Positions 14,561 to 44,237 of a stretch of 44,237 bases of DNA are shown here, one piece after another. Source of the stretch: Victivallales bacterium (GTDB lineage Bacteria; Verrucomicrobiota; Lentisphaeria; Oligosphaerales; Oligosphaeraceae); assembly GCA_017964325.1 (NCBI GenBank), contig JAGCSE010000135.1, positions 1 through 44,237 on the forward strand, given 5' to 3'. Each line of letters starts with the position of its first letter. Within the stretch, counting starts at the first letter, position 1. The notes under the pieces are model-generated. The model searched no databases and was not told the DNA's origin. It saw only the letters and a list, made by a program, of their open reading frames with translations. A program made the position numbers and the translations under genes.

Positions 14561-14585
14561 AAAAAATCGGCCGCCTGACGGCGGC
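14561..14585 (-). terminator. Intrinsic terminator of the kinase-lectin gene
   Basis: On the minus strand GCCGCC, loop GTCA, GGCGGC is followed by CG and six T. It lies about 150 nt past the stop codon, so the transcript carries a long structured 3' untranslated region. An identical copy is at 43930-43955. Confidence 0.85.
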
Positions 14586-14731
14586 ATCGTTTTCGCGCGG
14601 CCGTCTTCGCCTCGGAGCCGTCGCCGTCCCGCCTGTGCCCGCCTGACGGCGACGCGCTCCGCGCTGGCACTTGGGCGTGACGTGCTCGGCTCCTGTGGCG
14701 AAGACGGCTTTTTGGCTGTCAGAGGATTCCC

Positions 14732-16507
14732 TCATTGAACTGGAGCAAGGGCGAGGCGAAACCCAACGTAGTTGCGGCTAATCGACGGGTCGCGGTCGTG
14801 GCGGCTCGCCGAGCGGCAGTACCCGGCGAAGTTGCGCCACGAGCCCCCGCGTAGCACACGGTTCGAGCCACTGCAACACACCGGATCCACCACGCCATCC
14901 CGATATGTATCCGTCGCAACGCCACCTGCGTACTTGCAGTTGTCTCTGCACCATTCCCATACATTGCCATGCATATCATAAAGTCCCCAGGCATTCGGCT
15001 TCTTCTGACCGACGGGATGTGTCTTGCCGCCGCTGTTTGCGTCATACCACCCAAGTTCGTCCAACCTCGAATCATAACCATTTCCATTCAGCAGATTCTG
15101 ATTGCTGTTCAGCGCCCTCGTCGTCCCCGCGCGGCAGGCGTACTCCCACTGCGCCTCCGTCGGAAGAGCGAACTTATACCCGGAAGGCAGTTCCGATTCA
15201 TGCGTTTCATTCAATACATAACAGAAATGGCCAATTTCATCCCAAGATACACTTTCCACAGGATTGTCCTTTTTCATACCACCAAAAAAAGAAGTAAAAT
15301 GTGACGGATTCCCCCCAGTGACTCCCTTGTACTGCGCCTGCGTCACTGGGTATTTACCTATCCAGAAGCCTTGTGTCAACGTCACCTGATGCTGAGTTTC
15401 ATTATCATATCTTCCCAATTCATCTTCCGGACTCCCCATCATAAAAGTCCCTGCGGGAATCCAGATCATCTCCAAATCCACGCCGTCCGCCAATTTGAAT
15501 GTCAAATTGTCCTTCTTTTCCGCAGATGCGGCAGCAGGCGATGACGGTGTTTGGTTGGCAGCCTGTGGAGGCGCTGCCTCCACAACGGAAATATCGGCAG
15601 CCGCCCTGCCCTCCAACGCCTTTGCGAACGCAACGCAGTTCTCAAACCGGTCGTCTGGCTTCTTCACCAGCGCCATCTGCAAGGCGGCGTTCACGGCTTC
15701 CGACACGCCGACGATTGTCGAAGGTGCCGTATGCAGGACGGAATAACCCAACGTCTCAAAATCACATCCCGCAAATGGATACGTCCCATTCAGCATCTCG
15801 TAGGCCAATGCGCCAAGCGAGTACTGGTCTGATTTCGCGGTCGGATTGCCAAATGCAGCAGGATTCCACTGTTCGGGCGACTTGTAGGCGGGCGTACCGC
15901 CCGTCATCCATTGCCCCGTCGTGCGGGAGAAGCTCTCGCGGATGCAGCGTCCGAGGCCGAAATCCAGCAATTTCACGGATTTGACTTTTTCGCCGTCAAT
16001 CTGAACCATCACGTTGGCAGGCTTCACGTCGCGATGGATCAAGCCCTTTCCATGCGCGTAGTCCAGAGCCGCCGCCAGACGGCGGACGACCTCCTGCGTA
16101 ACCGCCAGCCCTGGCTTCGGATGATTTTTCAGATATGACTCCAGTGTCTCGCCATCCGCATAGTCCATCACGACATAGTATCGGAAAACATCATCGACAA
16201 GATTCCGCACGGCGACGATGCCGTCATGCGTCAGCTCGTACATGGTGTTGTATTCCTGCTTCAATTCCGCCACCGCCTCCGTGTTATTGCGCAGGATATC
16301 GGGAACGGTCTTTAGGGCCATTTCGCGGTTGTCCGCCCGCATATCGCGGCAGAGGAAGACACATCCCATGCCGCCGCGCCCCAGTTCGCGCACGAACTCA
16401 TAGCGCCCCGCGATGACATCGCCCGGCTGGAAATACAGATTACGCAACCGTTCATGAGAATCCATCTTCGTAGTCTTGTAATTATTCTCCTGTTCCATAT
16501 TTGTCAT
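14732..16507 (-). CDS. Hanks-type Ser/Thr protein kinase fused to an FGE-sulfatase/C-type-lectin domain ending in a DGR variable region
   Basis: A 591-residue protein numbered from the ATG at 16507 (AAGGAA just upstream; TTG at 16528 and ATG at 16498 are alternatives). The kinase domain (about 36-300) has every catalytic motif: GRGGMG (43-48), Lys66, HRDVKPAN (Asp160, Asn165), DFG (182-184) and SPE (210-212). A Pro/Ala linker (about 310-333) leads to an FGE-sulfatase domain (about 340-591) with MIWIPAGTFMMGSPEDE, LPTEAQWEYACRAGT, GNVWEWC, VLRGGSW and VGFRLA. The usual second active-site Cys of true formylglycine-generating enzymes is not seen, so this is probably a ligand-binding C-type-lectin fold. 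Residues about 549-581 are a DGR variable region. No signal peptide or membrane segment is visible, so both domains should be cytoplasmic. An FHA-protein gene lies upstream on the same strand. Confidence 0.92.
   Translation of the reverse strand: MTNMEQENNYKTTKMDSHERLRNLYFQPGDVIAGRYEFVRELGRGGMGCVFLCRDMRADNREMALKTVPDILRNNTEAVAELKQEYNTMYELTHDGIVAVRNLVDDVFRYYVVMDYADGETLESYLKNHPKPGLAVTQEVVRRLAAALDYAHGKGLIHRDVKPANVMVQIDGEKVKSVKLLDFGLGRCIRESFSRTTGQWMTGGTPAYKSPEQWNPAAFGNPTAKSDQYSLGALAYEMLNGTYPFAGCDFETLGYSVLHTAPSTIVGVSEAVNAALQMALVKKPDDRFENCVAFAKALEGRAAADISVVEAAPPQAANQTPSSPAAASAEKKDNLTFKLADGVDLEMIWIPAGTFMMGSPEDELGRYDNETQHQVTLTQGFWIGKYPVTQAQYKGVTGGNPSHFTSFFGGMKKDNPVESVSWDEIGHFCYVLNETHESELPSGYKFALPTEAQWEYACRAGTTRALNSNQNLLNGNGYDSRLDELGWYDANSGGKTHPVGQKKPNAWGLYDMHGNVWEWCRDNCKYAGGVATDTYRDGVVDPVCCSGSNRVLRGGSWRNFAGYCRSASRHDRDPSISRNYVGFRLALAPVQ
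14768..14863 (-). other. DGR variable region 1 (VR1) at the 3' end of the kinase-lectin gene
   Basis: Between the first and last variable codons compared with 44138-44233, 13 codons differ. Coding-strand pairs (this copy/other copy) are AAC/GAC, CTA/CTT, CGC/TAC, GGG/AGG, TAC/TTC, AGC/TAC, CAC/TTC, GAC/AGC, CGC/AGC, GAC/ATC, CGC/AAC, AAC/ATC and TAC/TGC. Eleven pairs are NNC in both copies, as expected if the template is AAC. Twelve of the 13 change the amino acid. Invariant residues between them (GGSW, NF, CRSA, PSIS, VGFRLALAPVQ) would keep the lectin scaffold. Adenine-directed substitution in AAY codons at the 3' end of an FGE/CLec gene is the known DGR pattern. The reverse transcriptase and template are not in the window. 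Confidence 0.87.
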
Positions 16508-16811
16508 GTTCCTTAGAGGTGATTTCAAAAGTCTTTATATTGTCTGGCTGTCTCCTGGCTCATCCTTCACTCGCGTCTCGCGTCTCGCATCTCGTCTTAA
16601 GCCTCGCGTTTCGCATCTCGCGTCATGTCTCGTCGTCTTACGTCTTAAGCCTTGCATCTCGCGTCTCGCATGTCTTGTCATCTTATACCTCGCGTCTCAC
16701 GTCTCACGTCTCACATCTCACGTCATGTCTCGTCGTCTTACGTCTTAAGCCTCGCGTCTCACGTCTCACGTCTCACGTCATGTCACCACTATCAAACTAA
16801 CAACTATTGTT
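16508..16811. repeat. Degenerate 7-bp repeat region (GTCTCAC/GTCTCGC type) between kinase and FHA genes
   Basis: From about 16570 to 16785 the sequence is built from variants of GTCTCAC and GTCTCGC with interspersed CGTCTTAAGC. A 35-bp segment at 16621-16655 recurs at 16721-16755 with one mismatch, exactly 100 bp apart. Small plus-strand frames here are repeat artefacts. The region would be transcribed as leader of the kinase gene if that gene is co-transcribed with the FHA gene, or would hold its own promoter. Confidence 0.85.
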
Positions 16812-18257
16812 TTACTCTTCCACGGCCATTTCCACGCCGTTGTCCATTATCTCTTGATTTGGTGACAGATAGATAATCCTTCTATTTTCCATTAAAAGAT
16901 AGAACGCACCCTCCGACCCCTGTGCGCCGTGCAGATACACAACACGCCAGTTCGGAAGCCGTGAATCTATCCTCGCAAGCTCACAGCACTCCCAGACGAA
17001 CACCTTGTACAACGCCGTCCAGCCTGGATACTCCAACACCACCGATTTCACGCCATGGGCATTGCAGCCGTCGCAGCACGGCAGCCGCAACCGCCCCGTG
17101 CACGTTTGGACATGCATCCTCCAACTGACGTCCGACGAAAAGCCCACGTCCGCATCCCGCCTGATTTCCATCCCGTCCACAGGTACTTCCTTTCCATCGA
17201 CATACGTCCTGTTGGTGCCGCTCAAATTCTTGAGCCTCACGGTGTCGCCACGATATTCCAGCCGTGAATGCGCACGGCTGATTTTGCCACATTCATCCTG
17301 CCGTTGCCGCTCTTCCATGGCCCCTGCGGGAATCGTTACGACAACATCCGCGTTGGGCTGCATCCTGCCCAATATCACATCCCGCTTCGCACACAGTTCA
17401 AGACATGCGCTCTTGAATTTCAGCACAAGCCGTTCCGCCGGATAGGGTTCGCCCTCTACATGCTGCTTTCCAAATGACGGCCTGTCAGTGATCTGCGTCA
17501 TAAGGAGCGTGTCGCGCATCGTGCGGAGCATTGCGATTCGACCGCCGTTTTCCACATCGGCCTTTTCCGCCTTCATCTTCGCCAACTCGTTTCCCAGCTT
17601 TTGGATTTCAATTGCTTTCACAAGCGCCTCGCGCTCCCTGTCCTTCTGTGCGAGCTCCTCCTGATGTTTGCGTTCATCTTCTTCCCGTTTCTTTGCGAAA
17701 CGATCGCGTTCAATTTGCGTCTGTGTCAGGATTTCCTTTGCATCCATCACCTTGCATTCCACGGCCAGCCAACGCTGGAACACGTCGCGAAGGGCATCCG
17801 CGCCAAAACACAGACCACGCAGTTCCTCTAATGATTTACCGGACAACTCCAGACGGTCTTCCAAGATGCCCGCTGTCAATGTCTTCTGCAAGAAACTTCT
17901 CATGTCTTCGCTGTCAACAGCCTCCTTCCCGCGTCCCGCCAACCAGTCGGCAAGCCCTTTGCCCGAATCGGAGTTCTGCATATCCAATTTCACCGTCAAA
18001 TTCAACGCAATTCCAATCGGTCCATTGATCTCCGCTTCCATGGAAATGGACAAGTGATTCGGATTGATATAGTAACAGTTATCCAACCTGTTATGGCCAA
18101 TCAACTGGTCCAGCCAGCCAGGCTCCTTCACAGAGCATGGCATGAATAACCTTTCGCCGTCGTTGTTCTGCACAAGCTCGTAGATGTTCAAGACCGCAAG
18201 CGGATCCTCCAACAACTTGATTTCCCGATAATCCTTCACCTTCTGTATCAAAATCAT
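16812..18257 (-). CDS. FHA-domain protein with coiled coil, partner of the kinase-lectin gene
   Basis: A 481-residue cytoplasmic protein. AAAGGAGGT 5 nt upstream fixes the start at 18257 (MILIQKV), 8 codons inside the longest frame. Residues 1-170 are of unknown fold; the stretch IGIALNLTVKLDMQNS followed by helical sequence faintly recalls SPFH/band-7 proteins. Residues about 175-235 form a charged coiled coil (QIERDRFAKKREEDERKHQE). An FHA domain at about 280-370 carries the phosphothreonine-binding residues: LGR (296-298), SRAH (327-330) and SGTN (346-349). The C-terminal 100 residues are cysteine-rich at first (CTGRLRLPCCDGC) and unassigned. FHA domains bind phosphothreonine, so it is a natural substrate or reader for the adjacent kinase; that partnership is inference from position. 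Confidence 0.83.
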   Translation of the reverse strand: MILIQKVKDYREIKLLEDPLAVLNIYELVQNNDGERLFMPCSVKEPGWLDQLIGHNRLDNCYYINPNHLSISMEAEINGPIGIALNLTVKLDMQNSDSGKGLADWLAGRGKEAVDSEDMRSFLQKTLTAGILEDRLELSGKSLEELRGLCFGADALRDVFQRWLAVECKVMDAKEILTQTQIERDRFAKKREEDERKHQEELAQKDREREALVKAIEIQKLGNELAKMKAEKADVENGGRIAMLRTMRDTLLMTQITDRPSFGKQHVEGEPYPAERLVLKFKSACLELCAKRDVILGRMQPNADVVVTIPAGAMEERQRQDECGKISRAHSRLEYRGDTVRLKNLSGTNRTYVDGKEVPVDGMEIRRDADVGFSSDVSWRMHVQTCTGRLRLPCCDGCNAHGVKSVVLEYPGWTALYKVFVWECCELARIDSRLPNWRVVYLHGAQGSEGAFYLLMENRRIIYLSPNQEIMDNGVEMAVEE

Positions 18258-18567
18258 ACATACCTCCTTTGATGTTCCCAACGACTGACTATTATTCCCA
18301 TATCAACGATTTGCCACACAATTATATAACTCACAGCAAGTTACATCTTGCAACCCTTGCCGCATCTTCCTGCCTCATATAGGATATCCCTACATGATGG
18401 CAAAATATCTCTTAAAATATAAATGTCTTTTTCCATTTTGCCCTGCCATTAAGATGACAACCAATGTTTTTTTCAGACTGTACAATCATGGAAGACTTGC
18501 CTGTTTCTTGCATTTGCTCATTTTCATGCCATTTTAGATACAATTGCAAAAACACAAGGAGACGTTC
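18258..18567. other. Divergent intergenic region between the FHA gene and the unknown gene
   Basis: AT-rich, about 310 bp, with no open frame worth calling. It must carry promoters for both directions. A TACAAT hexamer at about 18538-18543 is a possible -10 for the rightward gene, with only a poor -35. I see no repeat or RNA gene. Confidence 0.4.
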
Positions 18568-26483: not shown

Positions 26484-27173
26484 TCATGCTTCTATGTCTG
26501 GCGTCTTCGCATTGTTGTCCGCCAGCGGGTCTTTGGCAGATTCGCCATCTTCAGCCTTTCCGCCCATCCGCTTCTTCACGACTTTCATCGTGAAAAACGA
26601 ATCCAGCTCTTTGCTTTCAAGAACTTGGTCAACGTATTTCAGCGTTTCCTTGTAATCTGGAATGAAAATGTGCTCCAGTGCGTTCACATGGCGCTGTGTC
26701 TTTTTCAGTTCGCGGGCCAACAGCCACACGGAAGATTCCAATTCCGCCAACTTGCCAGTCGCCTCCAAAAGGCTCAAAAAGTCTTGCATCGTCTGGTCAA
26801 CCAATGAATCCGTACCCGCCAAACCGTACTGCGATTTGAATTCGCCTTGCTTGAACTCCAACGACGGAATGCGGATTCCAGCCGCGACACGGGTCGTTGA
26901 CGTCACCTTGTGGTCGTAGTGGATGCCTGTCGCCACGTTGCGTATATGATGATATCCATTAAAGGCAACGGCTTTTTTCAGTGTATTGTACGCTTTTTTG
27001 CGGCGCGTTTCGACCTCTTCCTGGACTTCCTTCACCATGTCCATGAGATGCATCAATTCCATGACGAGAATCTCACGCTTCTGTTCGAGCAGCGTGTATC
27101 CCTCGGTGGCCATGGCGAGATCTTTCTTCAAGGCCAATTGGTTCGTTTTGGTTGGAGGCAGATTCAGACGCAT
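26484..27173 (-). CDS. atpD: V-type ATP synthase subunit D
   Basis: A 229-residue central-stalk subunit of the V-type ATPase. MRLNLPPTKTNQLALKKDLA is close to the invariant start of subunit D, and the protein is two long helices (about 10-75 and 130-200) as expected for the rotor axle. The last 30 residues are charged (MGGKAEDGESAKDPLADNNA), an extra tail. It is the last gene of the operon, 7 bp after subunit B. I see no convincing terminator in the 26381-26483 gap that separates it from tag. Confidence 0.94.
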   Translation of the reverse strand: MRLNLPPTKTNQLALKKDLAMATEGYTLLEQKREILVMELMHLMDMVKEVQEEVETRRKKAYNTLKKAVAFNGYHHIRNVATGIHYDHKVTSTTRVAAGIRIPSLEFKQGEFKSQYGLAGTDSLVDQTMQDFLSLLEATGKLAELESSVWLLARELKKTQRHVNALEHIFIPDYKETLKYVDQVLESKELDSFFTMKVVKKRMGGKAEDGESAKDPLADNNAKTPDIEA

Positions 27174-27180
27174 GGCTCAA

Positions 27181-28581
27181 TCACCCCTTGTTGGACGTGA
27201 CGTTGGCGGATTGGTCGTAGTATTCGGCCAGCTCTTCTTCGGAGACGCGCAGGAGTTCGGAGCGCGGCAGGATGCGCAGGACTTCCCAGCCGATGGACAA
27301 CGTTTCTTCGATGGAACGGTTTTCGTATTCCCCCTGCGTGATAAGGCGGTTCTCGAACTCCATGCCAAATTTTAGGTACTGCTTGTCAACGGGACTCAGT
27401 TCCTCTTCGCCGATGACGGACGCCAGCGAACGGATGTCCTTCACTTTCGAATAGGCCGCGAACAGCTGCGACGCGATGTGCGGGTGGTCGGGCCGCGTCC
27501 GCCCCTTGCCGATGCCGTCCTTCATGAGACGCGAAAGCGACGGCAGGCCTGCCACAGGCGGGTAGATGCCACGCTGATGCATATCGCGATCCAACACGAT
27601 CCGGCCTTCCGTGACGTATCCCGTCAGGTCCGGAATCGGGTGGGAAATGTCGTCCGACGGCATGGTCAGAATCGGCATCTGCGTGATGGAGCCTTCCCTG
27701 CCGCGCAATCGGCCCGCCCGTTCGTACATGGATGCCAAATCAGAGTACAAATAGCCCGGATAGCCTTTTCTGGAAGGGATTTCGCCGCGAGCCGTCGCGA
27801 TTTCGCGCAACGCTTCACAGTAGTTGGACATATCCGTGATGATGACCAAAACGTGCATCCCCAAATCAAACGCGAGATACTCCGCCAGCGTCAAGGCGGA
27901 ACGCGGCGTGATCAATCGTTCGACGGACGGATCGTCTGCCAACGACAAGAACATCGCCACGTTCTGCAGGACGCCCGACTTCTCAAACGAGTCGATGAAA
28001 AACCGCGCCACGTCATATTTGACGCCCATGGCCGCAAATACGATGGCAAAATCAACGTTTTCGTTCAACAGCTTCGCCTGTCGCGCAATCTGCGCAGCCA
28101 TACGGTTGTGCGGCAGGCCGTTGCCTGAGAAAATCGGCAATTTCTGACCGCGCACAAGCGTGTTCATCAAGTCGATGGACGAAATGCCTGTCTGGATGAA
28201 ATCCCGCGGATATTCGCGAGCGTAAGGATTTACAGGCATGCCGTTTACGTCACGCCGATCCGCCGTCAACGGCGCGGGAAGGCCGTCTTTCGGACGTGCC
28301 AATCCGTCGAACACGCGCCCCAGCATGTCTTTCGAGACGGGTATCCGCAGCGACTCGCCGAGAAAACGCGCCTTCGTGTCTTTCTGCGACAACGTGTCCG
28401 TCCCGCCAAACACCTCCACGACCGCCGAATCTGCCGTCACATCAAGGACTTGGCCTAGCCGTGTCGCACCGTCGGGAGACGTGATTTCGACCAATTCGTC
28501 GTAGGCGACGTTCGAAATGTTCTCGATGAAAACCAACGGGCCGTCGATGGACGACACGCCTCTGTATTCCAAGCCTTTCAT
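27181..28581 (-). CDS. atpB: V-type ATP synthase subunit B
   Basis: A 466-residue non-catalytic nucleotide-binding subunit of the V1 head. [37 protein letters not shown] and [20 protein letters not shown], together with [20 protein letters not shown], are diagnostic of the B subunit. The P-loop of the A subunit is absent here, as in the family. The gene lies between A and D in the usual order; the gap to A contains an octamer repeat array. Confidence 0.97.
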
Positions 28582-28589
28582 ATAATGAG

Positions 28590-28679
28590 TGGTTAGTGAT
28601 TAGTGGTTAGTGGCCGAAAGTGTGAATTGTGAATTATGAATTGTGAATTATGAATTGTGAATTATGAATTGTGAATTGA
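28590..28679. repeat. TTAGTG repeats and an 8-bp AATTGTG/AATTATG array between V-ATPase A and B genes
   Basis: 28590-28614 holds repeated GTGGTTAGTG-type units. 28621-28679 holds about seven 8-bp units alternating TGAATTGT and TGAATTAT. The array supplies the last five codons (SIHNS) and the TAA stop of subunit A at 28662. Arrays of this kind occur between genes of many bacteria; here it separates two subunits that must be made in fixed ratio. Confidence 0.9.
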
Positions 28680-30440
28680 AAGATTGTCCAGCGCGGAACT
28701 GATTTGCTTGTCGAGTTCCGTCATGGCGGCCTTGTCGTCGTTCTTGATTTCGGATTTCATGCGGAGGAGGCGCGGCAACGCGGGAATGGCGTTGATTTCC
28801 GCGAGCGTCGTACCCTTTTTGATGAGATTCCGCGCATGGGATGTGAATGTCGCCAGCAGGCGGAGCATCCATGTCTGCTTGGCGGGCGAACAGTACATGT
28901 CGATGTCGTCAAACGAGTTCTGTTGCAGGAACGCATTTTTGATGATGTCGGCGACGAGCAGTGTCAGCCGCTGGTGGTCCGGCAGGGCATCCGGTCCGAT
29001 GAGCTTGGCGATTCGCTGCAAAGCGACTTCCTCCTGGAGGACTTCCATAAGCAGGTCGCGGCTCGCCTTCCATTCCGTATCCTGACGGCTCCACCAGTTC
29101 TGGATTTCCACAAGATATTCCGAATAGCTGTCATGCCAACTGATGGCGGGATAGTGGCGGGCATTCGCAAGGCTGCGGTCCAACGCCCAGAAACAGCGGA
29201 TGAAACGCGACGTATGCTGCGTGACAGGCTCTGAAAAGTCGCCGCCAGGAGGCGAAACGGCTCCGATGACCGTCACGGAACCATTGGTTCCATTCAGATT
29301 GTGCACATAGCCCGCCCGTTCGTAGAAACTGGCCAGACGAGCAGGAAGATACGCTGGAAATCCTTCATCCGCAGGCATTTCCTCCAAACGGCCCGACAGT
29401 TCGCGCAGAGCCTCCGCCCAACGGGAGGTCGAATCCGCCATGATGGCCACGTGATAGCCCATGTCACGGTAGAACTCCGCCAGCGTAATTCCCGTGTAGA
29501 TGGATACTTCGCGCGCCGCAACGGGCATATTGGACGTGTTCGCGATAAGAATTGTCCGCTCCATCAGCGACCGTCCCGTGCGGGGGTCCGTCAGTTCCGG
29601 AAATTCACGCAAAACTTCTGTCATTTCGTTGCCGCGTTCGCCGCAGCCGATATAGACGATGATGTCCGCATCGCACCATTTCGCCAACGCCTGCTGCGTC
29701 ATGGTCTTGCCCGTTCCGAAACCGCCTGGAATGGCTGCCGCGCCGCCTTTTGCTATCGGAAAGAACGTGTCAATGACACGCAGTCCTGTTAACAGTGGTT
29801 CTTCCAATGGTTTGCGTGAAAGGACAGGGCGTGGCTTGCGCACAGGCCAATACTGGTAGAAGCCCAACGGCTTTGTCGAGCCGTCATCGTATTCAACCTC
29901 TGCCAAAACCGTGCGGCCGTTGTAGTCGCCTTCCGCCTTCATGGATTTCACGCGGCCCGGCTTGAATGTCGGAGGCGTGATGAGCTTCAAGAGGACGGAC
30001 GGCGTCTCCTGCACTTCGCCATACTGCACGCCTGGCTTCACGATGTCGCCTTCTTTTACGCACGGCTTGAAATGCCAGATTTTGTCCAAATCCTGCGCAT
30101 CCGTCTTTTCGCCGCGATGAATCATCGCGCCAGAAATCGCCGCAATGCGGTCGAGCGGACGTTGGATGCCGTCGTAAATCGTTCCAATCAAGCCAGGTCC
30201 GAGTTCAACGGACAGCGGCCGCGTTGTGCAATACACACCTTCGCCAGGCTTCAGGCCCGACGTGTTTTCATAGACTTGAATCGTCGCAAAGCCGCCTGGA
30301 CGGATGCGGATCACTTCGCCGATCAGCCGTTCTTCCCCGACTTCGACCACTTCAAGCATTCCCGCCCGCTCCATTTCGCGGGCCTCCACAATCGGCCCGT
30401 TAATGCGCGTAATGATACCTTTTGCCAAAATGTCTGCCAT
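28662..30440 (-). CDS. atpA: V-type ATP synthase subunit A (catalytic)
   Basis: A 592-residue catalytic subunit of the V1 head. The P-loop GGFGTGKT is at about 238-245 and is followed by [20 protein letters not shown]. The family's extra non-homologous region is at about 110-200 and [20 protein letters not shown] lies in the expected place. The C-terminus ends inside the octamer repeat array, so its last residues (LSIHNS) are repeat-encoded and probably dispensable. It follows subunit E by 24 bp. Confidence 0.97.
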
Positions 30441-30464
30441 TCAGCATCCCCTAATTCCATTCAT

Positions 30465-31076
30465 TCAAGAATCCTGTACGTCGCCGGCGACGATAATCCG
30501 CAAAACATCTTTCATGCGCAAAAGGCGCGTTTTGTACGAATTATCGACCTGGCGTGCGCCGTCCGTCGTCTCCAGCACGATGCCACCGTCCACCGATGGG
30601 TCTGGTTTCAATGTATAAGTAATTGTCGATTCGGGATATATCTCTTTTGACAATTCCTGTAGCCATGTTGTTGTGACAATATTGCCGTCAGCGGGATTGA
30701 ACGACACCGTGCAGTCGCGGTCGCCGATTTCGCACAGAGCTCCTTTGGCGAGCGAAGCGAGAGAAGCGGCGCGATCAAAGCCCTCCGCCTTGTCCGCTTT
30801 CGCCAATGCCGTCTGCAAGAGGTCGTTTATACAGGCCTCCCGCTTCAACAGCCAGCGGCGGTTCATCTCCATGCCGATTCCCGTGAACATGGCCTGGGCC
30901 TGCCGTTCCGCTTCAGCGTTCGCCTCAGCCAACATAGCCTCCCGTTTCTTCGCAACGTCGCGACGGGCGCGGTCAACGATTTCGTCGGCTTCGGCCTGCG
31001 CATGGGCGGCGGTCTCCTCCGCCTGCGCTTTCGCCTCCGACATGATTTCCTGCTTGAGTTTCTCTTCCTGGTTCAT
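30465..31076 (-). CDS. atpE: V-type ATP synthase subunit E
   Basis: A 203-residue peripheral-stalk subunit. The first 80 residues are an alanine/glutamate coiled coil (AKAQAEETAAHAQAEADEIV), and the C-terminal globular part has VDGGIVLETTDGARQVDNSY, typical of subunit E. The ATG overlaps the stop of subunit F by four bases (ATGA), indicating coupled translation. Confidence 0.9.
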   Translation of the reverse strand: MNQEEKLKQEIMSEAKAQAEETAAHAQAEADEIVDRARRDVAKKREAMLAEANAEAERQAQAMFTGIGMEMNRRWLLKREACINDLLQTALAKADKAEGFDRAASLASLAKGALCEIGDRDCTVSFNPADGNIVTTTWLQELSKEIYPESTITYTLKPDPSVDGGIVLETTDGARQVDNSYKTRLLRMKDVLRIIVAGDVQDS

Positions 31077-31411
31077 GGTTTGTCGTCTTCTTCCTCATCC
31101 GTCGAAATGCGGACTCCGACAGCTTCGTTGATCAACTCCTGCAACGACTTGCGATTTCCAATCGGCCCTTGCACGCTCTGTACGACCGCCAGATACGGCG
31201 GCTGAGCGGCAAGTCGATGGCGCGTAACACCTTCTGATATCATATCCTCCACCGCCTCCGTGATCAGAAGAACGGTGACTGACGGATCATCCAACGCTTT
31301 CCGAAACGCGGCCTCCGCTTCGTCAGCCGTTTCGACGACATCGCCTGAAACGCCCGCAAAACGGTATCCGAGAACCGTGTCCTGGTCGCCGATGATGTGA
31401 TACACAGACAT
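31073..31411 (-). CDS. atpF: V-type ATP synthase subunit F
   Basis: A 112-residue rotor subunit. The start MSVYHIIGDQDTVLGYRFAG, the central VTVLLITEAVEDMI and PPYLAVVQSVQGPIGN follow the family pattern. It lies 12 bp after the K subunit and overlaps E by four bases. Confidence 0.92.
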   Translation of the reverse strand: MSVYHIIGDQDTVLGYRFAGVSGDVVETADEAEAAFRKALDDPSVTVLLITEAVEDMISEGVTRHRLAAQPPYLAVVQSVQGPIGNRKSLQELINEAVGVRISTDEEEDDKP

Positions 31412-31423
31412 GAAATGCCGCTC

Positions 31424-31771
31424 CTATTTATTAATTAGGAATAGCGAAATCAGAAAACCGAACAGCGCAATACCTTCGCCCAGACCGACATAGATGATGG
31501 CTTTCGACAGCACTTCCGGCTTTTCGGCGGCGGCTCCCATTGCGGCGGAACCAATTTTGCTGACGGCCATGGAAGCCGCCAGACTGCCGCACACCATGAT
31601 GACGGCGATGGCCGTGTATTTTGCGATATTCGAGGCATCGCCCGTGCCCGCCGCAACGACGCCTTCCGCCGCCGGTTCCGCAATCGCCGCCATCATCATC
31701 AATGGCATCAACAGCACGGAAAGTCGCGCAGCCTTCATCACTCGGGAAAACCTTGTTACGTTCATTTTCAT
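31424..31771 (-). CDS. atpK: V-type ATP synthase subunit K (membrane ring)
   Basis: A 115-residue proteolipid forming the membrane rotor ring. A signal-like hydrophobic N-terminus (RLSVLLMPLMMMAAIA) precedes a single hairpin of two helices (about 50-80 and 85-113), so this is the short c-subunit form rather than the duplicated four-helix form. The ion-carrying Glu is in VGLGEGIALFG. The polar residues next to Glu that mark sodium rings (a Gln in helix 1, Ser/Thr after Glu) are not visible, which slightly favours protons; this is inference. Confidence 0.9.
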   Translation of the reverse strand: MKMNVTRFSRVMKAARLSVLLMPLMMMAAIAEPAAEGVVAAGTGDASNIAKYTAIAVIMVCGSLAASMAVSKIGSAAMGAAAEKPEVLSKAIIYVGLGEGIALFGFLISLFLINK

Positions 31772-31812
31772 TGTCTTTGACTCCTTTGTTTTTCTATCTT
31801 ACTGTGGTTGAG

Positions 31813-33408
31813 TTATTTCTTTTCATTAAGCCGAAATGGTCTGTAGGCCACGCCCGCGCCGGAGAAATATTTGCCGAAAAGCTCGTAGTATTCCAGACGG
31901 ATGCACTGGATCATCGCGACCATCCCCTCGAAGGCGATGACCATCACATTGCCGATGACAATGATGATGAACTGCCACAGCGGACTGGCGGGCAGCTTGG
32001 ACATCATGCCGACAATCAAAAACACCGCCATGCACAACGCCGCGTGGGAAATCGCGAACGCGCCTACGCGGACAAATGAAACCGTGCCGCTGATGTATCC
32101 AGTGAACGTCTCCATCAAGTCAATAATCCCTTCCAGCATAACGCCGAATGCGCTTTCACCATGGAACAAGCTGTGTTTCCTCAACAAGTTGTGCAATGGT
32201 TCGCGGATGAACAGCAGCACCAGAGGAGAGATGATGATGACAATCTGCCAAATTGCAATCGAGCCGTTGAAGACCATCCACAGCCCAGTCGCCAAAACAC
32301 TCCAGTAGAAGACAAGCCCCAACAGGCCGAATTTGTCAAAAACTCCTTCATAGTAATGCCTTGAAAGAAAATGGTTTATGATGTTGATGATGATGGCGAC
32401 GGAGGTGAAGACGATGCCCATGCCGACCGCCGCCAGCAGGAGTCGCTGAATATCGCTTAATAAGCTGCCTTCGGAAATTTCCATCTCCAACGGGTTCACC
32501 CAAAGATGATGGAACAGATGCTCGTAACCGAATACCGAACCGTAGAAAAGGCCGAACACCATTGCGCACAGGCCACACGCCATCAAAAGCACACCGCCGT
32601 TGCGGATGCCATCGGAAAATTTCCTCTTGGAGTATTTCATGAATAGCCCTGCCAAAAGCAGAACCAGCCCCTGCCCTACGTCGCCGAACATGAAACCGAA
32701 CATCAATACAAAGGAAATGCCAACGAATATCGTCGGATCCAATTCGTTGTAGCGCGGCATCCCAAAATTCGATATCAACATTTGAAACGGACGGCGCCAC
32801 GGACTGTCTGTGAATTTCACAGGAATGTTCTCCAGCCCCGCTTTGACTCTTGCATCTTCTTCCGCTTCAATTACTTCGACTATACCCATGCCATTCGTCG
32901 CATCTTCTACAAGTTTCTTGACTTCATCGACTTCTGACTTTGGAATCCACCCCGATATGCAAGACAGATGGGATGACTGCCCAAAATGCCTCCGGGCGTC
33001 ATTCACGGAAAGAAGCCTCTGTAGTTGCAGACGAGCCGCTAACAGTTTGTCACCAAATTCCTTACGCAACGCCTTCGTGCCATCATCGTCATCCTGCGTC
33101 TTGAATCGAGCGGAAATATCATCAATCAAAGTAGTTATGTCCTGTTGTGACATATCCGAAGATTCTGCCGTCTCGCTGTTTTCATTCATGCCAAGACGGT
33201 TGATCAACTGCTCCGTCTTGTCCATGAGCTGACGAAGAGCCGTCAATTCGCTTTCAACGTCACAGTTGTTCAGAAGACCGGTTTCCGTTTGGGCAGCCGC
33301 ATCGACCAGATGCAGGATGCCTCGATCCCCGAGCTTCCAAGTCACGTCCTGTAAATGCCTTGTGAGCATCAGAACGTTGATTTTACACATTTCAACAGGT
33401 TTGAACAT
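31813..33408 (-). CDS. atpI: V-type ATP synthase subunit I (membrane stator)
   Basis: A 531-residue stator subunit, somewhat shorter than the usual 600-650. I place the start at MFKPVEMCKINVL (33408) because GGA lies at a normal distance; ATG 33414 and TTG 33429 are alternatives. The N-terminal half (about 1-215) is cytoplasmic and partly coiled (ESELTALRQLMDKTEQL). The C-terminal half has about seven membrane helices: LDPTIFVGISFVLMFGFMFG, GLCAMVFGLFYGSVFGYEHL and the family's conserved SFVRVGAFAISHAALCMAVF. It follows subunit C closely. Confidence 0.93.
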   Translation of the reverse strand: MFKPVEMCKINVLMLTRHLQDVTWKLGDRGILHLVDAAAQTETGLLNNCDVESELTALRQLMDKTEQLINRLGMNENSETAESSDMSQQDITTLIDDISARFKTQDDDDGTKALRKEFGDKLLAARLQLQRLLSVNDARRHFGQSSHLSCISGWIPKSEVDEVKKLVEDATNGMGIVEVIEAEEDARVKAGLENIPVKFTDSPWRRPFQMLISNFGMPRYNELDPTIFVGISFVLMFGFMFGDVGQGLVLLLAGLFMKYSKRKFSDGIRNGGVLLMACGLCAMVFGLFYGSVFGYEHLFHHLWVNPLEMEISEGSLLSDIQRLLLAAVGMGIVFTSVAIIINIINHFLSRHYYEGVFDKFGLLGLVFYWSVLATGLWMVFNGSIAIWQIVIIISPLVLLFIREPLHNLLRKHSLFHGESAFGVMLEGIIDLMETFTGYISGTVSFVRVGAFAISHAALCMAVFLIVGMMSKLPASPLWQFIIIVIGNVMVIAFEGMVAMIQCIRLEYYELFGKYFSGAGVAYRPFRLNEKK

Positions 33409-33430
33409 GGTCATATCCGTATGGATCAAT

Positions 33431-34453
33431 TTAAGAACAAATCATCATTTCCATGATGTCGTGCGGCTGCATCTCGAAATGGATTCCCTCGTAAATCCGC
33501 CCGAGATTCAACGTTTCAAAATGCTGCAAAAACGGGAAAGCCACGATTGACAGCTCAATGCGGCTGTAGTCCCCAAAACAGCGTTTCGCCTTTCTATACA
33601 ACATCTTCCACAAGGCATTTTCGGACTGATGCAGGTCTTCATCTGCAAGTGGTTGCAACTGTTCGCGATAAGTGGCTGGCAACTTGGAGAGAAATTCATC
33701 GCCCGTCTTCAGGCGCGACAGCTCCGTCAAGACGTCAGGCAACAGCGTGCCGCCGTCAATCCAGATATCTTTCACGGTTTTTTCGTCCAGTCTGTACGTA
33801 CGCACAATGCGCAACAGCATACACAGGTTGACGACATCTATCTCCGTCTGCACCAACGACATGGCGGCCTCTCGCACGACATGCGGAAGGCGTTTGGCAT
33901 GGGTCAGGAAGTTGCGGTAAGCCAGCCTGTCCAAGGCGTATTCAGCGAACATGATATCCTTGTCTTCATGCAATTTTTTCACAATCTCTTGGATTTCAGA
34001 TGGATATATCGCAGGATGAAGTGCTAGGACGAAGGCGTCCTCAGATTTCAACGACAGCAGTTCAGCCGCCGCCATCTCCGGCAGACATGGCGCGTTGACG
34101 AGCAGATGATCGATGTCCGCTTCACGTTCAGGAAAGAACCTGTAGTGCAAAAGCACTTGCAGATTTTCAAAATATCTGCGTTCCATGAAGGCGCGGTAGA
34201 AAGCCGCCGTTTTCTCGTCCAATTGTGTGGAAATATTCGTCAAGATATTGATTTCACGGAGGATGAGATTCTGGTGGAACTGCTCGCGGCTGGCCGCGCC
34301 CAGTTTACGCTCCTCCAAAAAGCGCAAGATGCCGTCCGATTTGCCAGCGGAAACCAATTGCGACAGCCTGCTGTCTTTTGCCGCATTCGCCCAAACGCCA
34401 TGCATCCTTGCGAAGATGTATTCTTGGCTAATATTGGCGACTGGTTTCTGCAT
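33431..34453 (-). CDS. atpC: V-type ATP synthase subunit C (AC39-type)
   Basis: A 340-residue mostly helical subunit that couples the rotor ring to the central stalk. EYIFARMHGVWANAAKDSRL at the start and the three-fold helical pattern (EIDVVNLCMLLRIVRTYRL; RIELSIVAFPFLQHFETLN near the end) match the C/AC39 family. Sequence similarity in this family is low, but context and length agree. It lies between the G/H-like stalk gene and subunit I. Confidence 0.9.
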   Translation of the reverse strand: MQKPVANISQEYIFARMHGVWANAAKDSRLSQLVSAGKSDGILRFLEERKLGAASREQFHQNLILREINILTNISTQLDEKTAAFYRAFMERRYFENLQVLLHYRFFPEREADIDHLLVNAPCLPEMAAAELLSLKSEDAFVLALHPAIYPSEIQEIVKKLHEDKDIMFAEYALDRLAYRNFLTHAKRLPHVVREAAMSLVQTEIDVVNLCMLLRIVRTYRLDEKTVKDIWIDGGTLLPDVLTELSRLKTGDEFLSKLPATYREQLQPLADEDLHQSENALWKMLYRKAKRCFGDYSRIELSIVAFPFLQHFETLNLGRIYEGIHFEMQPHDIMEMMICS

Positions 34454-38553: not shown

Positions 38554-38728
38554 ATGCCATTTAAGACATTTATTATTGAATATTTGCTGGCAAAACATGA
38601 ATGTTTTCAAGAATATCCATCATTCAATAAGCTTCTAAAACGCAATTTTCATGCGGAAAAGTTGGAATTATGCACGATACCGTGTAGATTATGGGAAGCC
38701 ATATAAATATTCGCTTTGGAGGTTTGAA

Positions 38729-39814
38729 ATGCTGGTATCTCTTGTAGAATACGCGAAAAAATACAATAAAAGCAGTGACACAATACGACGTTACGCCGAA
38801 AACGGCCATATCCATACGGCTCGTAAAATAGGAAGAAACTGGGTCGTCGAATTGGAAGAGCCTTATCCCGTTGCTTCTCGCTGGCGAGTCGCCCCTGTCA
38901 CTCTCATTTCACTCTTCAGCGGCTGTGGAGGAATGGACATGGGGTTCAAAGGAGATTTTGATTTTCTCGGCAAGCACTACGACAAGAATGGGATAGACAT
39001 CATTTGGGCCAATGAAATCAACCATGACGCTTGCGTTACTTACAAACGGAATATCGGGGATGTTATTGAAGGCGACATCCATGATGTTATCGACAGGCTT
39101 CCCGATTATGCGGATATTGTCATTGGAGGGTTTCCATGTCAGGACATCTCCATAAACGGCAAAATGGCGGGAATAAACGGAAAACGCAGCAGCCTCTACA
39201 CGGCCATTGTCGAAGCGGTCGAAAAGGTCAAGCCAAAAGTGTTTGTCGCCGAAAATGTCGGAAGCCTGATGCTTCGCAAGCATGATGAGTCAAGAAAGAA
39301 AATTCTAGACGATTTCAGTTCACTGGGCTATCGAATTCATTATCAAACATATCATGCAGAAGACTATGGTGTCCCACAGACCCGCGAACGTATATTCATT
39401 GTGGGGACCCGTGAGGACATGCCCGCCTTCATCCCGCCGCAGACAACGACTTTGTTCAAGCCTATCACGGCGAAAGAGGCTTTGGCGGACTTGGAGAACC
39501 ATCCACGTGATGTTTCCTTCGCACATATCTGGAGTGAAGCCAAGGTCAGCGGAGAACAAGGCAACCGCAAACTTGTAGCCAACAGGCCAGGCTACACCAT
39601 GAGGGCTGAATGCCATGGCAACATTCAATTCCATTATTCCCTGCCAAGGCGAATCTCCATGCGCGAAGCTGCAAGAATCCAGTCATTCCCAGATACCTTT
39701 GTATTTCCCGGTGGCTTGAGGGCGACGGAGCGCCAAATCGGCAATGCAGTCCCTCCGGTCCTTGCCTGGCATGTGGCGCAGTCCGTCTTGGCCGTCATCA
39801 GAAACAAGGGATAA
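38729..39814 (+). CDS. DNA (cytosine-5) methyltransferase with N-terminal helix-turn-helix domain
   Basis: A 361-residue C5 methyltransferase. GGAGG 7 nt upstream selects ATG 38729 (MLVSLVEYAKKYNKSSDTIR) over the longer frame from 38651. Residues 1-42 form an excisionase/MerR-like helix-turn-helix (VEYAKKYNKSSDTIRRYAEN, then GHIHTARKIGRNWVV). The catalytic domain has motif I ISLFSGCGGMDMGF, motif IV GGFPCQDIS with Cys137, motif VI ENVG, motif VIII QTRERIFIVG, motif IX RRISMREAARIQSFPDTF and motif X QIGNAVPP. It transfers methyl from S-adenosylmethionine to cytosine in a site that cannot be read from sequence. The endonuclease gene follows after 4 bp. The HTH may bind its own promoter and act like a controller. 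Confidence 0.95.
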   Translation: MLVSLVEYAKKYNKSSDTIRRYAENGHIHTARKIGRNWVVELEEPYPVASRWRVAPVTLISLFSGCGGMDMGFKGDFDFLGKHYDKNGIDIIWANEINHDACVTYKRNIGDVIEGDIHDVIDRLPDYADIVIGGFPCQDISINGKMAGINGKRSSLYTAIVEAVEKVKPKVFVAENVGSLMLRKHDESRKKILDDFSSLGYRIHYQTYHAEDYGVPQTRERIFIVGTREDMPAFIPPQTTTLFKPITAKEALADLENHPRDVSFAHIWSEAKVSGEQGNRKLVANRPGYTMRAECHGNIQFHYSLPRRISMREAARIQSFPDTFVFPGGLRATERQIGNAVPPVLAWHVAQSVLAVIRNKG

Positions 39815-39818
39815 GGTT

Positions 39819-40829
39819 ATGGACAAAGAACATTTCGAGAATCTTCTTGATGTTATCTGTGTGCAACTTACAAAAGACGCACAGACAAAATTGTTCACAT
39901 CTTCCACAGAATTCGAAAATCGTGTAAGGCATCTGATGAACGACCGTTTGAAGAGGAACAGTAAGTTCGCAATCAATATGAATCCACATCCACAGGCCTT
40001 TCCTGACATTGCAGTTGGCGAATTCGGCGTGGAAGTGAAATTCACATCGGATGACACTTGGCGTACTGTGGGCAACAGCATTCAGGAAAACCAGCGCATT
40101 GAGACGGTCAAGCACATATATCTTGTTTTTGGCAAGATGGGTGGGGTTCCGGAAGTGCGTTGGGGAGAATATGAAGCAAGTATCATCCATGTACGCACCT
40201 CCCATGTTCCTAGATTTGAAGTTGAAATTCAAGTAGAAGACATTCCTGGTCATCAGTCGCTTTTTGAGCAAATGGGAATTCGTTATGATGATTTCCGTCG
40301 GCTTAATATGAAAGATAAGATGAAATATATTCGACAATATGCAAGAAAAATACATCCTGACGGCAAGCTTTGGTGGCTGGAAGGTTTGGAAGAACATTCA
40401 TTGCCTATGCAAGTCCGTCTCTATACCAATCTTGAGCAAAATGAGAAAACACAGTTGAGGGCTGAAGCGGCTCTCCTTTTTCCTGCCATTGTCAAGTCGG
40501 GAAGAAACCGTAGGAAATATGATGAACTTGTACTTTTTCTTCTCACTTATCATGGTGTTCTCTGCCATCAGGCAAGAGATTTATTTTCCGCTGGAAGCGT
40601 CGCCAATCCAACAAATGACGATGAGGGAGGAGTTTACATCGCCCGTGCACTCAAATTGCTTGAAGATGAAATGATAAAGGCTGCAGAACGTCTTCCCGAT
40701 GAACTGTTTGTCGAATACTGGGGAGAAAGTGTTCCAAATGAAATGCGTATTGACAGATGGCTTGAAAAAGCAGATGCCTTAGCTACGAAATGGATTCCAT
40801 CAGAAGTTCTGTTTTTGAACAAAAAATGA
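39819..40829 (+). CDS. Type II restriction endonuclease (PD-(D/E)XK)
   Basis: A 336-residue protein directly after the methyltransferase. The start at 39819 (MDKEHFENLLDVICVQ) has AAGG just upstream; the frame extends to 39744 inside the methyltransferase, which is unlikely. The metal-binding nuclease core is FPDIAVGEFGVEVKF with Asp63, Glu72 and Lys74, the classical PD-(D/E)XK layout. The rest is helical and not recognised. Role in restriction is inferred from the pairing with the C5 methyltransferase. Low similarity between endonucleases is normal. The gene ends before a perfect hairpin terminator. Confidence 0.85.
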   Translation: MDKEHFENLLDVICVQLTKDAQTKLFTSSTEFENRVRHLMNDRLKRNSKFAINMNPHPQAFPDIAVGEFGVEVKFTSDDTWRTVGNSIQENQRIETVKHIYLVFGKMGGVPEVRWGEYEASIIHVRTSHVPRFEVEIQVEDIPGHQSLFEQMGIRYDDFRRLNMKDKMKYIRQYARKIHPDGKLWWLEGLEEHSLPMQVRLYTNLEQNEKTQLRAEAALLFPAIVKSGRNRRKYDELVLFLLTYHGVLCHQARDLFSAGSVANPTNDDEGGVYIARALKLLEDEMIKAAERLPDELFVEYWGESVPNEMRIDRWLEKADALATKWIPSEVLFLNKK

Positions 40830-43816: not shown

Positions 43817-43842
43817 CGGGAGGGTCGCACTCCCGTGCGACC
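43817..43842. promoter_or_regulatory. Two overlapping, mutually exclusive hairpins
   Basis: CACGGGAG (43816-43823) can pair with CTCCCGTG (43830-43837). Alternatively GGTCGCAC (43823-43830) can pair with GTGCGACC (43835-43842), loop TCCC. Both are perfect 8-bp stems and they share bases. They lie in the leader of the MBL-fold gene on the minus strand. They may be regulatory or only a by-product of the repeat. Confidence 0.5.
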
Positions 43843-43889
43843 GTATGCGCGAATGCGATCGTATGCGCGAATGCGACCGTATGCGCGAA
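43836..43889. repeat. Three 18-bp tandem repeats (unit TGCGACCGTATGCGCGAA)
   Basis: Copies are at 43836-43853, 43854-43871 and 43872-43889; the middle copy differs by one base (GATC for GACC). The unit contains near-palindromic TGCGC steps. Located between the lectin gene terminator and the MBL-fold gene. Confidence 0.95.
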
Positions 43890-43929
43890 TGCGCATACTC
43901 CGTCCCAATATATATCCCCTTCTCCCCCC

Positions 43930-43955
43930 AAAAAAATCGGCCGCCTGACGGCGGC
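43930..43955 (-). terminator. Intrinsic terminator of the second lectin gene
   Basis: Same hairpin as at 14561-14585: on the minus strand GCCGCC, GTCA, GGCGGC, CG and at least six T. It belongs to the gene whose stop is at 44102. Confidence 0.85.
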
Positions 43956-44101
43956 ATCGTTTTCGCGCGGCCGTCTTCGCCTCGGAGCCGTCGCCGTCCC
44001 GCCTGTGCCCGCCTGACGGCGACGCGCTCCGCGCTGGCACTTAGGCGGGACGTGCTTGGCTCCTGTGGCGAAGACGGCTTTTTGGCTGTCAAAGGATTCC
44101 C

Positions 44102-44237
44102 TCATTGAACTGGAGCAAGGGCGAGGCGAAACCCAACGCAGATGTTGCTAATCGACGGGATGCTGCTGAAGCGGTACGCCGAGCGGCAGAACCTGGCGAA
44201 GTTGTACCACGAGCCCCCGCGAAGCACACGGTCCGAG
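44102..44237 (-). CDS. C-terminal end of a second FGE-sulfatase/C-type-lectin protein with a DGR variable region, cut by the window edge
   Basis: The stop TGA is at 44104-44102 and 44 full codons are visible before the edge. The frame reads SDRVLRGGSWYNFARFCRSA, then YRFSSIPSISNIC, then VGFRLALAPVQ. The invariant blocks are those of the kinase-lectin protein at 14732-16507, and the last 11 residues are identical. Whether a kinase domain precedes it cannot be seen. The gene has the same terminator cassette, so it is probably a close paralogue or a second DGR target. Confidence 0.88.
   Translation of the reverse strand, partial: SDRVLRGGSWYNFARFCRSAYRFSSIPSISNICVGFRLALAPVQ
44138..44233 (-). 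other. DGR variable region 2 (VR2)
   Basis: Aligned codon by codon with VR1 at 14768-14863; 13 codons differ and 12 change the residue. Its variable codons are GAC, CTT, TAC, AGG, TTC, TAC, TTC, AGC, AGC, ATC, AAC, ATC and TGC, nearly all NNC. The rest of the codons are identical to VR1. Confidence 0.87.

Follow-up and report, generated by a model that had tools for sequence, protein, structure and literature searches.

Two lectin-gene ends, one of them on a kinase gene, are probable remote targets of a diversity-generating retroelement in a probably Lentisphaeria-related bacterium

In the window, by which we mean the whole analysed DNA stretch of 44,237 nucleotides, two genes with FGE/C-type-lectin sequence end in closely similar repeats, VR1 and VR2. 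Since the differences between these gene ends fall almost only at sites that diversity-generating retroelements (DGRs) change, the ends are likely DGR targets. Both repeats are, in our judgement, very probably variable repeats (VRs), and as such remote targets, of one DGR whose own genes would lie at another place in this genome. In the first copy, the repeat lies at the end of a gene that also encodes a Ser/Thr kinase.

RESULTS

Differences between the two copies

VR1 (positions 14768-14863) and VR2 (44138-44233) are read on the minus strand, which is the coding strand, and align without gaps at an offset of 29370. The repeats are the last 44 codons of the two genes, over which the copies differ at 19 sites, with 13 codons affected and 12 residues changed. 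Codon positions 1 and 2 hold 18 of these differences, and the sole difference at a third position is CTA/CTT, an A/T pair. At 17 of the 19 sites one copy carries an A on the coding strand, while the remaining two are C/T pairs. Both copies read NNC in 11 of the 13 variable codon pairs. No difference occurs in the 36 nt that lead from the VR to the end of the stop codon, and the 171 noncoding bases that follow the stop codon differ at 4 positions. The shared repeat was reported at 14561-14860 and 43931-44230, its 5' side being cut by the window end (44237). In the first-pass annotation, the alignment and its counts had been interpreted as the adenine-mutagenesis signature of a DGR. Every figure was reproduced, and the A counts and codon positions support the interpretation.

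The probability of finding an A at 17 or more of the 19 sites, at 50% per site, is 3.6e-4. For at most one of the 19 differences in codon position 3, with one third expected in each position, P is 0.0047. The density of differences, 19 in the 96-nt VR versus 4 in the 171-nt flank, gave a Fisher P of 2.3e-6. Not every site of a VR-to-VR pair in a DGR needs to contain an A, as mutation may have affected both copies. Among the listed viral FGE pairs with at least 18 VR differences, most of which come without proof of being DGR targets, the share of sites with A ranged from 37% (13/35, L008/L077) to 72% (13/18, L023/L039).

Genes carrying the repeats and their neighbourhood

VR1 forms the 3' end of a gene on the minus strand (14732..16528) whose 598-aa product contains, according to Pfam, a Ser/Thr kinase domain at residues 43-267 (PF00069, E 2.1e-38) with HRD and DFG motifs and a C-terminal FGE/C-type-lectin domain at residues 353-593 (PF03781, E 3.4e-47). 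No membrane helix was seen in this protein, in which no 19-residue window exceeded 1.31 on the Kyte-Doolittle scale. The second FGE gene, also on the minus strand, is represented by the 3' end of an open frame (44102..44237) with its TGA at 44102-44104. Both copies have the C-terminus LALAPVQ. The window ends 4 bases beyond VR2, inside the second gene, and the kinase fusion is seen for copy 1 only.

Upstream of the kinase gene and on the same (minus) strand, a 489-aa gene (16812..18281) encodes an FHA (phosphothreonine-binding) domain (PF00498, E 1.7e-6). To judge from adjacency only, the FHA protein is a possible partner of the kinase. Degenerate repeats lie between the two genes at 16575-16781. 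Elsewhere in the window, a V-type ATPase gene cluster occupies 26484-34453, with eight Pfam matches to V/A-ATPase subunits, and a restriction-modification pair lies at 38651-40829, in which the gene of a type II restriction enzyme (PADLOC REase_II, E 8.6e-131) overlaps that of a cytosine DNA methylase.

The FGE/C-type-lectin domain of copy 1 (14735..15481, minus strand) is predicted to bind a ligand, based on its match to 2y3c by sequence and fold. This structure, Treponema denticola variable protein 1, was the best of 24 solved sequence matches (E 2.6e-32; the next had E 1.8e-22) and outranked the listed catalytic FGEs. A model of the whole kinase-FGE protein was set aside at a mean pLDDT of 56, and the FGE domain was remodelled alone, which gave a mean pLDDT of 90.2. 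With this domain model, Foldseek returned 2y3c as the first match (E 6e-22, TM 0.81). We take the 2y3c protein to be TvpA and presume that it is the DGR target of T. denticola whose structure is known.

Templates of three other DGRs

Templates of DGRs on viral contigs served as a yardstick. A scan of viral_contigs with FGE proteins kept 79 loci from 332 confirmed stretches, and a reverse transcriptase family was found in 2 of the 30 FGE records searched (30 of 81 loci), both with a template. One, L033 (RGGSWNNNPQNCRSANRNNNTPDNRNNNIGFR), contains a reverse transcriptase (PF00078), an Avd protein (NF033474), a template and a target of 515 aa. The other, L017 (RGGSWNNNAANCRAANRNRNNPDNRNNNLGFR), contains a reverse transcriptase (PF00078) and a template, and L113 is the same element. 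A further scan of viral_contigs with the reverse transcriptases of L033 and L017 kept 80 loci, in 73 of which the detector reported a template/VR pair; these pairs were checked by eye in part, and L152 looks doubtful. L141 (RGGSWNNNANNCRVANRNNNNPSNTNNNIGFR), which also has a reverse transcriptase gene, provided the third distinct DGR template with the frame of the window. Of the 120 best relatives found for the yardstick reverse transcriptases, four carried an organism name, all four being Planctomycetota and none Lentisphaerota. The viral-contig DGRs L084-L088 have a related template frame, RGGNW or RGGNY followed by GFR, and were left out as yardsticks because their frame spacing differs. 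A strict template scan of the 81 loci and the window yielded a candidate in L041, which was rejected as pentapeptide repeats.

The templates of L033, L113/L017 and L141 encode the RGGSW...GFR frame of the window's VRs. Template codons reading AAC within a GGSW, CRSA and GFR frame had been predicted before any template was at hand, and the templates of these three other DGRs match that prediction. In the best 60-70-nt windows, the VRs of the yardstick DGRs differ from their templates only at template adenines. Before GFR, the VR of L033 carries an extra codon relative to its template, and the L141 VR reads RGGGW in place of RGGSW. The test on the templates used the 17 of the window's 19 variable sites that fall within the 32-codon frame; the other two precede it. 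Measured on these foreign templates, which come from viral contigs and not from the window's own organism, 15 of the 17 sites coincide with adenines of L033 (P 5.7e-8), 15 with adenines of L113 (P 1.3e-8) and all 17 with adenines of L141 (P 8.5e-11). When third codon positions were left out, P was 1.8e-5, 4.1e-6 and 1.9e-7, respectively.

Search for a template and a reverse transcriptase

Using 60-nt pieces of VR1 and VR2 on both strands and allowing up to 5 non-adenine mismatches, we recovered only the two copies and nothing elsewhere in the window. Pfam revealed no reverse transcriptase in its 32 main ORFs, and a tblastn search of the window with the yardstick reverse transcriptases and Avd stayed at or above E 0.49, the best value for the L033 Avd. 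In the contig collections, a DNA pattern of the VR frame matched 0 stretches in both genome_contigs and viral_contigs, and a 20-nt piece of the hairpin described below had 0 matches in viral_contigs. A scan with the kinase-FGE alignment matched its pattern 48 times in genome_contigs and 44 times in viral_contigs, without a single confirmed relative.

A window devoid of template and reverse transcriptase in these searches also fits the main rival explanation, according to which a past DGR diversified both copies and then lost its reverse transcriptase or template, leaving the variation frozen. There is a precedent in Thiohalocapsa, for which PMC10907252 describes disrupted DGR loci with still-variable targets. 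Against such a relic stands the contrast between 19 differing VR sites and 4 in 171 noncoding bases, because of which the diversification looks recent relative to drift. We regard the relic as improbable.

Protein-level signature in relatives and plasmid controls

A search of 5.8 billion proteins with 7993 candidates scored gave 7872 relatives at E <= 0.001. Among the best 120 of these relatives, which were listed, three kinase-FGE proteins carry organism names, one Victivallales and two Lentisphaeria, which makes a Lentisphaeria-related host probable. For a column count, 27 frames were obtained from 25 of 41 kinase-FGE proteins, the others not fitting the frame pattern. Eleven columns are AAY in the L033 template, one of them being AGG in L113, and at these columns the window has NNC codons in 22 of 22 cells. 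At the AAY columns, the kinase-FGE relatives have residues that no NNC codon encodes (K, Q, E, M and W) in 6 of 297 cells, compared to 21.8% in the upstream FGE region. In plasmid FGE controls, which comprise the 8 of 10 genes that could be framed and whose DGR-free status is without proof, the same residues filled 7 of 88 cells (P 0.013 versus the kinase-FGE relatives), and a C or T third base is already present in 71 of 88 codons, versus 22 of 22 in the window (P 0.022). At the level of these aligned sequences, the protein signature is weaker against the plasmid FGE control than against the upstream FGE region. The K/Q/E/M/W comparison of window plus yardstick with the plasmid controls (Fisher P 0.19) says little because the filter shrank the yardstick set to one VR, owing to the extra codon of L033 and the RGGGW of L141.

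The residue composition of the AAY columns was also recorded. Among the 297 cells of the kinase-FGE relatives, Thr and Pro, which need a C in codon position 2, are absent, and Ala, which needs it as well, occurs 6 times; Ser is ambiguous. His, Arg and Leu, possible from a C in position 1, are common (47/297). None of the variable NNC codons of the window has a C in position 2. Four of the related proteins (P0003, P0007, P0016 and P0023) contain two or three tandem FGE domains in one reading frame, each ending in a VR-like frame.

These controls bear on the view that ordinary duplicated FGE genes were altered by diversifying selection, or by gene conversion from paralogues, with no DGR involved. 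Loop residues vary in FGE proteins generally, including plasmid FGE genes not known as DGR targets, and many FGE relatives exist. The template match alone leaves selection possible, because the adenines of a template coincide with loop residues, which may be variable in any FGE. Neither selection nor conversion, however, explains why an A is found at 17 of the 19 sites and why only one of the 19 falls in a third position, nor the match to the template adenines of other DGRs, which holds even when third codon positions are disregarded. Gene conversion with a divergent donor would introduce changes at third positions. As far as sequence can tell, the A counts and the third-position counts within the window speak against loop-residue variation alone, and diversifying selection or conversion without a DGR is unlikely, even more so than the relic. 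An assembly artefact, in which a collapsed or misjoined repeat at the window end has made VR2 chimaeric, has next to no probability: assemblies often break at repeats and VR2 sits at the last bases of the window, but the sequence next to copy 2, below 43931, is unique, the VR1 gene product has an identical match encoded on a contig that at 45899 bases exceeds the window in length, and misjoining would not give adenine-specific differences.

The 3' cassette

The noncoding 3' element of copy 1 (14561..14731, minus strand) is shared with copy 2 except for the 4 of 171 bases mentioned above. It contains a long imperfect hairpin (14600..14708, minus strand) that starts 23 nt after the stop codon and is a candidate DGR target hairpin or cruciform. 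Folded as DNA together with its flanks (148 nt), it reached -52.3 kcal/mol (z -7.4), and 0 of 200 shuffles were as stable. It is followed by a GC-rich, terminator-like hairpin and six T (14561..14588, minus strand; -8.5 kcal/mol, z -3.3, 2 of 200 shuffles as stable). The element of copy 2 (43931..44101, minus strand) likewise has a predicted long hairpin (about 43970-44078) and a terminator-like hairpin; its 148-nt fold gave z -7.0, with 0 of 200 shuffles as stable. The predicted long hairpin after each stop codon measures about 109 nt. Between the second cassette and a gene with a metallo-beta-lactamase fold, 3.2 copies of an 18-nt repeat are located at 43836-43893.

In the BPP-1 phage, efficient retrohoming depends on a hairpin/cruciform that follows the VR, and the stems in the phage DGRs displayed in that work measure 7-10 bp (PMC3240598). 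The hairpin of the window is far longer and matches in kind, not in size. By analogy, it probably marks the retrohoming site and would serve as an address for the DGR. The similarity of the copies extends beyond what DGR homing would transfer, so that a duplication of the cassette or of the entire gene is probable.

DISCUSSION

A single DGR acting in trans on both copies remains our preferred explanation. Reverse transcription of an RNA copy of an AAC-rich template would introduce errors at adenines, and the resulting cDNA would replace the 3' end of each target gene, the hairpin after each copy acting as the retrohoming mark. About a dozen residues of the FGE/C-type-lectin domain would be rewritten in this way, while the RGGSW...CRSA...GFR frame stays fixed. 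In copy 1, the changes made by the element would fall on the sensor tip of a kinase. Because a kinase with HRD and DFG motifs precedes the variable domain and an FHA gene adjoins, this domain is probably a ligand sensor that controls phosphorylation signalling.

The two dispersed copies with their common cassette, one of them on a kinase beside an FHA gene, offer a testable case of a bacterium that mutates the input end of a signalling protein. The pattern was recognised from the VR-to-VR comparison and the templates of other DGRs, without the host's own template. A broader proposal, which we offer tentatively and consider rather doubtful at present, is that Lentisphaeria-related bacteria possess a DGR-fed repertoire of phosphorylation receptors. 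One trans-acting element might rewrite kinase-FGE sensor tips by means of a portable cassette of VR, long hairpin and terminator at each gene end, with FHA proteins as readout, and the tandem-FGE proteins of related bacteria might be served likewise.

Remote targets are easily overlooked. Roux et al. state for their own survey that requiring a target beside the reverse transcriptase misses them, and their paper uses a Lentisphaer- name in grouping PVC genomes (PMC8144416). In the literature searched, which covered few subscription papers, we found no report of a kinase-lectin DGR target from Lentisphaeria-related bacteria.

Among known systems, the viral-contig DGRs L033, L113/L017 and L141 have a 32-residue template frame equal to that of the window. 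They hold target, template and reverse transcriptase within a few kb, whereas no template or reverse transcriptase was found in the 44 kb of the window. The closest solved relative of the window's domain, in sequence and in fold, is T. denticola variable protein 1 (2y3c). PMC10907252 reports that the structure of a T. denticola DGR target is known and that this target is an outer-membrane lipoprotein; the window's domain, in contrast, follows a kinase, and no membrane segment was seen. Thiohalocapsa PB-PSB1 resembles the window in having several lectin-fold/FGE targets, some of them apart from the template. Trans action on some of its DGR targets was inferred, and they were proposed as antigen sensors (PMC10907252). 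The Thiohalocapsa targets are tied to NACHT/STAND and ternary conflict systems (PMC10907252), unlike the window, in whose 32 main ORFs Pfam found none of these domains.

The nearest arrangement is that of the remote variable proteins of cyanobacterial DGRs, in which a C-terminal CLec domain sits on an N-terminal serine/threonine kinase and for which ligand-controlled kinase activity was hypothesised (Vallota-Eastman et al., PMC7517822). Copy 1 likewise has an N-terminal Ser/Thr kinase and a C-terminal CLec domain, no reverse transcriptase being found in the window by Pfam or tblastn, and shows the same order of kinase and lectin fold with a VR at the 3' end. The cyanobacterial proteins are mostly described as cytosolic and encoded by dispersed copies (PMC7517822), a further likeness to the window. 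Kinase-lectin remote targets are thus already known from cyanobacteria. The window differs from the cyanobacterial examples in its probable Lentisphaeria-related host, in the adjoining FHA gene and in the conserved cassette of a long hairpin and a terminator-like element.
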